64,000 nucleotides of DNA from Selenobaculum gibii (GTDB lineage: Bacteria > Bacillota > Negativicutes > ICN-92133): positions 352,401 to 416,400 of the forward strand of contig NZ_CP120678.1 in assembly GCF_030273445.1 (NCBI RefSeq). The letters run 5' to 3'. Below are positions 10,586 to 15,196 of the stretch, piece by piece. The notes under the pieces are model-generated. The model did not search any database and had not been told where the DNA came from. It saw only the letters and a program-made list of their open reading frames with translations. The number at the start of each line of letters is the position of its first letter. Within the stretch, counting starts at the first letter, position 1. The position numbers were made by a program, and so were the translations under genes.

Positions 10586-10668
10586 AATAGTACTAGAAGG
10601 AGCTAACTTAGGTAAGAGTTGAATAGATTTATCTAGATATGTTAATTTTAAAGCTTTATCTTGAGTTT

Positions 10669-10675
10669 TGTCGAA
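10669..10675 (+). promoter_or_regulatory. Putative Spo0A box (TGTCGAA)
   Basis: TTTTGTCGAAA at 10666-10676 is a perfect match to the Spo0A core TGTCGAA. It lies 18 nt upstream of the -35 of promoter candidate B and downstream of candidate A. Only the sequence match supports it. Confidence 0.5.
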
Positions 10676-10693
10676 ATTGGTAAAAATTTAAAC

Positions 10694-10924: not shown

Positions 10925-10942
10925 GAGGAAACGTGGATACTC
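10925..10942 (+). promoter_or_regulatory. 18-nt conserved porin leader element, copy 1
   Basis: GAGGAAACGTGGATACTC, identical in the leaders of all three SLH porin genes. Here it ends 90 nt before the start codon. GAG and CTC at its ends can pair around a 12-nt loop. Its role is unknown. Confidence 0.75.
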
Positions 10943-11032: not shown

Positions 11033-12169
11033 ATGAACAAAAAATTATTAAAGGTTGCCGTTACAAGTGCATTAACTGTTGCATTTGCTGTACCAGCATT
11101 TGCAAATCCATTCGTTGATGTATCTAAAGATCATTGGGCATATGATGCAGTTGTTGAGTTAGCTAAAGAAGGTGTAATTGAAGGTTATGGCGATAACACT
11201 TTCCGTGGTGAGCAAAACATTACTCGTTATGAAATGGCTCAAATGGTAGCAAAAGCTATGGATCAAGATCTAACTGGTGAACAAAAAGCCACTGTTGAAA
11301 AACTAGCGAGAGAATTTGCTAAAGAATTAAACTCTTTAGGTAAAGATGTTAAAAATCTTAAAGCTGAACAAGAACGTGTAAAAATTTCCGGTGATGCTCG
11401 TGTTCGTTATGGTTCTAACGATGAAAGCGACAAAACTGACTTCAGAGCACGTGTTACTCTTGACGGAAAAATTTCTGACAACTTAAAATTCAACACTCGT
11501 GTATCCAGTGGTGACATTAGTTATGACGAAAATAGTGAAGGCATCGTTTTAGATACTGCAAACTTAAGCTTTAATGCACTTGGCTTAGAAAATACAGTTG
11601 GTCGCCAAGACTTAACTTTAGGTACTGGTACAATCATTGACGATACAATGACTGGTATTAGCTCTGAAGTTGGCGGTTTAAAAGTATTCTATGGCAACCA
11701 TGCATCTGAAGAACAAGACTTATTTGGTGCTGAATACGGTACTGAATTGTTTGGTGCAGATGTGAACCTTGATTATATGAAAGCTGATGCTAAACAAGGT
11801 GAAGATAAAGAGTTCTATGGCGTGAATACTTCTTTCGGTATCACAAAAAATATCAGCATGAACGCTGAATATGCAAAAGAAAATAAATCCGGTGATGATG
11901 CAGTAGCTTATGGTATCAAATTCGATAAATTAGGTTTATCTGCAACTTACAAAGATGTAGAATCTGGTGCAGCTACTAACTATGGTACACAAGCATACGA
12001 TATCAATAACGTATCTTTCTTAAGTGAAGGTTACAAAGGTATGGAATACAAACTTGAAAGAGAATTAAATGAAAATACTCTATTCACTGTAAAATACCAA
12101 GACTTTGAAAACCAAGCTGGTACAAAAGATGATAACCGTACTTCTGCTTACTTGAATGTTAAATTCTAA
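11033..12169 (+). CDS. SLH-domain outer membrane porin (OmpM-like), copy 1
   Basis: Outer-membrane beta-barrel anchored to the cell wall, the Negativicutes counterpart of a structural porin. Starting at the ATG at 11033 after AAGGGGGA, it has 378 residues. An upstream in-frame extension has no ribosome site and would bury the signal peptide. The layout is a signal peptide (to AFA, about residue 23), one SLH domain (about 24-75, with FVDVSKDHWAYDAV and ITRYEMAQMVAKAM), a coiled coil (about 80-115) and a barrel ending in a C-terminal phenylalanine (LNVKF). The SLH domain binds polyamine-modified peptidoglycan in characterised relatives. Its barrel differs strongly from those of the two downstream porins. 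Confidence 0.9.
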   Translation: MNKKLLKVAVTSALTVAFAVPAFANPFVDVSKDHWAYDAVVELAKEGVIEGYGDNTFRGEQNITRYEMAQMVAKAMDQDLTGEQKATVEKLAREFAKELNSLGKDVKNLKAEQERVKISGDARVRYGSNDESDKTDFRARVTLDGKISDNLKFNTRVSSGDISYDENSEGIVLDTANLSFNALGLENTVGRQDLTLGTGTIIDDTMTGISSEVGGLKVFYGNHASEEQDLFGAEYGTELFGADVNLDYMKADAKQGEDKEFYGVNTSFGITKNISMNAEYAKENKSGDDAVAYGIKFDKLGLSATYKDVESGAATNYGTQAYDINNVSFLSEGYKGMEYKLERELNENTLFTVKYQDFENQAGTKDDNRTSAYLNVKF

Positions 12170-12659: not shown

Positions 12660-12693
12660 CAAAATAAATTTATTTTGCTACTTTTTCTTTTTA
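12644..12693. terminator. Perfect 25-bp inverted repeat, bidirectional terminator
   Basis: The sequence ending the small RNase H-fold gene is perfectly complementary to the 25 nt after it, centred at 12668/12669. The stem has a GC-containing middle and A/T-rich ends, so it can terminate transcription from either side. Confidence 0.8.
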
Positions 12694-12701
12694 TCCTATT
12701 T

Positions 12702-12925
12702 TGTCGAAAAAAGAAGAATGTAAATGACCTTTATTAAGTTTTTTAAGATTTAAAAACTTAAATAATGAGGTTTTTGGTGATAAATATGATTTTAAACTTG
12801 CTTTTTCGACAAAATGAATTATAATATAGATAAGATTTCGACAAAATATACATAATAAATTGACGAAAAAAGTCGAAAATTTATAAAATGTAGAAAAAAA
12901 TATTAATTTAGGGTATTGTGTCGAA
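12702..12925. promoter_or_regulatory. Cluster of putative Spo0A boxes upstream of the second porin
   Basis: Core matches to TGTCGAA lie at 12702-12708 (+), 12805-12811 (-), 12837-12843 (-) and 12919-12925 (+). TGACGAA (12861-12867) and AGTCGAA (12871-12877) are near matches. The first three are embedded in TTTTGTCGAAA, the extended Spo0A box. Site 12805 lies in the spacer of one promoter candidate and site 12919 overlaps the -35 of the other. The rest of the gap 12660-13135 is AT-rich leader. Confidence 0.6.
12798..12825 (+). promoter_or_regulatory. Promoter candidate P1 of the second SLH porin
   Basis: TTGCTT, 16 nt, TATAAT. A minus-strand Spo0A-like box falls in its spacer. Confidence 0.5.
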
Positions 12926-12944
12926 ATATGAAATGGGTTATAAT
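12916..12944 (+). promoter_or_regulatory. Promoter candidate P2 of the second SLH porin
   Basis: TTGTGT, 17 nt, TATAAT. A TGTCGAA box at 12919-12925 overlaps the -35 hexamer. The predicted leader is about 185 nt. Confidence 0.7.
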
Positions 12945-13039
12945 AAACCCGTAAAGAAAATACAGCACAGGATTTATATGGCTGTAAATGAAGAGTTTAC
13001 ATATTTGGGATTGAATTCAAGTAAGGAAATATAATTGAA

Positions 13040-13057
13040 GAGGAAACGTGGATACTC
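13040..13057 (+). promoter_or_regulatory. 18-nt conserved porin leader element, copy 2
   Basis: GAGGAAACGTGGATACTC, ending 78 nt before the porin start. Upstream flanking sequence (GTTTACATATTT, GGAAATA) is also shared with copy 3. Confidence 0.75.
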
Positions 13058-13135
13058 TTGAAACGTATTTTCTGAAAAAATTTTTTTCTGGAAACGAAAC
13101 TCGAAAAAATAATTTATTTTGAGGGGGATTTTCTC

Positions 13136-15178: not shown

Positions 15179-15196
15179 GAGGAAACGTGGATACTC
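15179..15196 (+). promoter_or_regulatory. 18-nt conserved porin leader element, copy 3
   Basis: GAGGAAACGTGGATACTC, ending 82 nt before the porin start. Confidence 0.75.

Follow-up and report, generated by a model that had tools for sequence, protein, structure and literature searches.

The analysed window is a stretch of 64,000 nt from the genome of strain ICN-92133, a gut bacterium possessing an outer membrane. The genome consists of one contig of 2,679,003 bases, and the window has a G+C content of 33.7%, the value published for Selenobaculum gbiensis ICN-92133 being 35.5% (PMC10491768). Three OmpM-type SLH porin genes are arranged in tandem, 3' of an LptF/LptG gene and a DUF3084 gene:

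11033..12169, + strand: preceding OmpM-type porin, 378 aa
13136..14482, + strand: target gene, OmpM-type porin with SLH domain and barrel region, 448 aa
15279..16541, + strand: third OmpM-type porin, 420 aa

The SLH domain was confirmed in all three porins. The barrel was assigned from a Porin_5 match in one paralogue and otherwise from homology, and the signal peptide was assessed by eye only. An SLH domain followed by a barrel is also the organization of Veillonella parvula OmpM, which the corresponding paper presents as an outer-membrane tether and a nutrient channel/diffusion porin, with no mention of Spo0A or sporulation in its main text (PMC10628300). A preliminary description had designated the target as the main outer-membrane anchor porin; it is indeed an SLH-domain OmpM-type porin, but the word "main" was not supported, the gene being one of three tandem paralogues.

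Spo0A is the switch that starts sporulation. In C. difficile it recognizes TGTCGAA, a consensus box predicts binding, the box has been described as a core with A/T flanks, and mutation of G2, C4 or G5 in the abrB box weakens Spo0A binding (PMC3485338). Upstream of the target gene there are four exact TGTCGAA cores within 224 nt (12702-12925), at 12702-12708(+), 12805-12811(-), 12837-12843(-) and 12919-12925(+), three of the four having the extended form TTTTGTCGAAA. Two near matches, TGACGAA (12861-12867) and AGTCGAA (12871-12877), constitute a single head-to-tail pair with a 10-bp period. The initial report of four exact cores, three of them extended, and two near matches in 224 nt is confirmed. 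An additional one-mismatch core, TGTAGAA, was found at 12889-12895. None of the four exact boxes has a good partner 10 bp away, and strong tandem geometry is restricted to one site. The whole window contains five TGTCGAA cores, the fifth (10669-10675), overlooked in the preliminary description, lying 5' of the adjacent porin gene. Upstream of the third porin, a search tolerating one mismatch gave no 0A core. The boxes and the candidate promoters are as follows:

10666..10676, + strand: one 0A box, TTTTGTCGAAA, 5' of the preceding porin gene
12699..12709, + strand: 0A box 1, TTTTGTCGAAA, upstream of P1
12798..12825, + strand: candidate promoter P1, TTGCTT - 16 nt - TATAAT, by sequence; weak -35; missed by the consensus scan
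12804..12814, - strand: 0A box 2, TTTTGTCGAAA, inside the P1 spacer
12836..12846, - strand: 0A box 3, TTTTGTCGAAA, shortly 3' of the predicted P1 start (about 12832)
12860..12889, + strand: candidate promoter P1', TTGACG - 18 nt - TAAAAT, consensus scan 10/12; -35 overlaps the tandem 0A site
12861..12877, + strand: tandem 0A site TGACGAA-AAA-AGTCGAA, 10-bp spacing
12916..12926, + strand: 0A box 4, TTGTGTCGAAA, overlaps the P2 -35
12916..12944, + strand: candidate promoter P2, TTGTGT - 17 nt - TATAAT, by sequence; missed by the consensus scan

P1, P1' and P2 are predicted promoters, and the consensus scan returned no more promoter-like sites in this region than in shuffled sequences. With this reading of the promoters, the two placements proposed in the preliminary description were recovered: the core at 12805-12811 falls between the P1 elements TTGCTT (12798-12803) and TATAAT (12820-12825), and the core at 12919-12925 overlaps the -35 of P2 (TTGTGT, 12916-12921; TATAAT, 12939-12944). 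The locus combines cores, A/T flanks and proximity to candidate promoters, which is the pattern expected of Spo0A-controlled promoters. An inverted repeat, GGGTTATAATAAACCC as read on the + strand, spans the P2 -10 at 12935-12950 and could be a further operator. The third porin is preceded by a TTATAATA motif resembling P2.

The spo0A gene that the preliminary description called for is present. Its product, encoded by the single gene for a Spo0A_C protein in the genome, aligns over the whole length of the B. subtilis Spo0A DNA-binding domain (1lq1), through the recognition helix, which is nearly identical to that of B. subtilis; a 22-residue stretch differs from 1lq1 at two positions. The genes spo0A, spoIIE, spoIIGA and spoIVA were all found, with open frames. 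The region upstream of abrB contains TTGACA/TACTAT followed directly by TGTCGAA-TGT-TGTTGAA, together with a second site bearing TTTTGTCGAAA, and that upstream of spo0A contains TGTCGGA-AAA-TGTTGAA plus another TGTCGAA. A relaxed tandem pattern gave 18 matches in the genome, most of those besides the porin site being inside ORFs; the intergenic ones comprise two weaker sites besides those at abrB, the target porin, spo0A and a methyl-accepting chemotaxis gene. In the stretches scanned, spoIIE showed near-matches only, and for spoIIGA even a tolerance of one mismatch gave no core; degenerate boxes of low affinity have been described at the spoIIE and spoIIGA promoters of other organisms (PMC3485338). 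Since the upstream regions of abrB, spo0A and one chemotaxis receptor share the tandem code, the reading of the boxes as Spo0A operators is well supported, and this agreement within one genome is the strongest reason to regard the porin boxes as Spo0A sites.

Other occurrences of the boxes were noted along the contig (C1). A perfect tandem, TGTCGAA-TAT-TGTCGAA, lies at C1:2163638-2163654 just 5' of the methyl-accepting-chemotaxis-like ORF in an abrB-like layout, and this gene is likely to be another Spo0A target. TTTGTCGAA is found at C1:797434, about 20 nt 5' of a small ORF resembling, by eye, a Spo0B-type phosphotransferase. TTTTGTCGAAA precedes a dnaG-like primase gene at C1:801049 and lies at C1:28207 between a gyrA-like gene and a gene for another outer-membrane-like protein.

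The distribution of the boxes was analyzed on 136 OmpM-type porin starts taken from the window, from named Selenomonadales and from class-level genomes. TTTGTCGAA was present within 500 nt upstream of the two window porins only, and TGTCGAA upstream of 6 of the 136 starts, four of these six being outside the window. The porins of a Massilibacillus-like genome (G081), the closest relative found, have no boxes, and box arrays were not found at OmpM genes of the named Selenomonadales or at the class-level loci. Any generality of the arrangement was therefore not borne out in relatives, and the array is lineage-specific as judged on these genomes, because TTTGTCGAA is limited to the two window porins and the G081 porins lack boxes. 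One G081 locus (L185) considered as a porin array was rejected, its tandem site preceding an exported-oxidoreductase-like ORF and not a porin. This locus carries TGTCGAA-TGA-GGACGAA and TTTTGTCGAA 5' of the ORF, which has a twin-arginine-like start and is a possible Spo0A target.

As a null model for the clustering, the region 12660-13135 was submitted to 20,000 dinucleotide-preserving shuffles. These yielded a mean of 0.05 TGTCGAA cores and a maximum of 2, compared with the four observed. The boxes are locally far more frequent than by chance, and the refuting outcome named in the preliminary description, a frequency no higher than base composition predicts, was not obtained; GTCGAAA and TGTCGAA were the top two over-represented 7-mers of the intergenic region relative to the remaining window. 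Clustering by chance in an A+T-rich intergenic region would fit the frequency of the core across the window, which is at chance level (5 found, 5.5 expected), but we regard it as extremely improbable in view of the shuffle maximum and of the genomic distribution of the extended box: TTTTGTCGAAA has 10 copies in the 2.68-Mb genome, three of them here within 148 bp and one at the neighbouring porin, when, by our own arithmetic, ten sites placed at random would produce about 1e-6 such triples per genome. Since the core is at chance level in the window and the extended box shows no genome-wide excess (10 sites versus 9 for the reversed control), the signal is one of local clustering, without window-wide or genome-wide enrichment. 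The same genome-wide count, along with the lack of conservation in relatives, could be explained by a genuine cluster that does not work as an operator, made of relics, of a decoy titrating Spo0A or of sites for a regulator with a similar motif. This seems quite improbable, given that abrB and spo0A carry the same code and that Spo0A is the only Spo0A_C protein encoded; moreover, the boxes occur in both orientations with different flanking sequences and so are not a simple repeat.

We infer from these sequences Spo0A binding, the promoter positions, the sign of regulation, its physiology and its link to sporulation. The 224-nt stretch is probably a multi-site Spo0A operator that covers the promoters of a single OmpM porin gene, and its net effect would most likely be repression because the boxes sit in the P1 spacer, just beyond the P1 start and over the P1' and P2 -35 regions. 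Spo0A~P would bind the tandem site in addition to the four consensus boxes, the boxes at these positions would mostly block RNA polymerase, and vegetative transcription of the porin would fall as Spo0A~P rises during stationary phase or when sporulation begins, as at abrB. In B. subtilis, the abrB boxes located 3' of the promoter are roadblocks, and box effects at spo0A are chiefly repressive (PMC12090719). The target region resembles B. subtilis abrB in having TGTCGAA-type boxes, including a 10-bp tandem pair, at a vegetative promoter, and differs from it by four more single boxes over about 220 nt, several candidate promoters and an outer-membrane porin as target. It also resembles the Pv/Ps region of B. 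subtilis spo0A, where two promoters and several 0A boxes are intermingled (PMC12090719), although there is no evidence of a sigma-H promoter here and the controlled gene is structural, not regulatory.

The main rival to net repression is a switch from P1 to P2 or net activation, in which Spo0A~P would shut P1 and activate P1' or P2, the porin being kept or raised during the sporulation transition. P2 associates a good -10 (TATAAT) with a poor, box-overlapped -35 (TTGTGT), P2 has the tandem site on its 5' side, boxes extend across the P1' and P2 -35 regions, and at the two promoters of B. subtilis spo0A an individual box can act positively on one and negatively on the other (PMC12090719). Blocking fits the position of the P2 box equally well or better, however, since this box is on and just 3' of the -35 (about -32 to -26 from the predicted start), and the third porin has a similar weak promoter without boxes. 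Such a switch is possible but rather unlikely, and we judge repression likelier than either activation or switching as the direction of control.

The best-characterized Spo0A regulons are those of single-membrane Firmicutes, and engulfment at sporulation must reshape the envelope. The unusually dense, non-random set of boxes at the porin promoter suggests, short of proof, that the outer membrane may be altered upon the sporulation or stationary-phase decision. A stronger statement, namely that in this Firmicute with two membranes an outer-membrane tether/porin is controlled directly by Spo0A, thereby resetting attachment or permeability at commitment to stationary phase or sporulation, appears to us evenly poised between right and wrong. 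Concerning the initial proposal of a porin under Spo0A, the boxes, the presence of Spo0A and the code shared with abrB and spo0A speak in its favour, while the direction of regulation and the link to sporulation did not stand to the same extent. Sporulation of ICN-92133 was not observed under the growth conditions used (PMC10491768). The strain may be a conditional sporulator, given its open spo0A, spoIVA, spoIIGA and spoIIE frames. In agreement with the earlier statement that no such case was described, no paper on Spo0A control of a porin or of OmpM was found in the open-access literature searched, as judged by titles and abstracts. If binding and regulation were confirmed, the locus would connect the sporulation switch with outer-membrane tethering in a way open to testing, a connection that, if true, would bear on sporulation in two-membrane bacteria and on how outer membranes could be lost.

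Another element, separate from the Spo0A question and more widely conserved than the boxes, was observed in the 5' leaders of the porins:

10925-10942: hairpin copy
13012..13089, + strand: conserved leader hairpin region of the target gene, with core GAGGAAACGTGGATACTC at 13040-13057
15179-15196: hairpin copy

The hairpin displays a 12-nt conserved loop, GAAACRTGGAYA, and a short closing stem, in which one pair is either G-C or A-U and the adjoining pair is highly variable (94.4% of cells paired over 40 sequences). A lower stem extends it, as flanks out-folded shuffled flanks when the core was kept fixed (mean z -2.5, 84 sequences). No credible match to the leader hairpin was obtained in Rfam for the stretches searched. 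An exact pattern located it roughly 70-110 nt upstream in 85 of the 136 porin starts, with variants at several others. The hairpin, with its conserved loop and covarying stem in leaders of OmpM-type porins across Negativicutes, is a candidate new cis-regulatory RNA.
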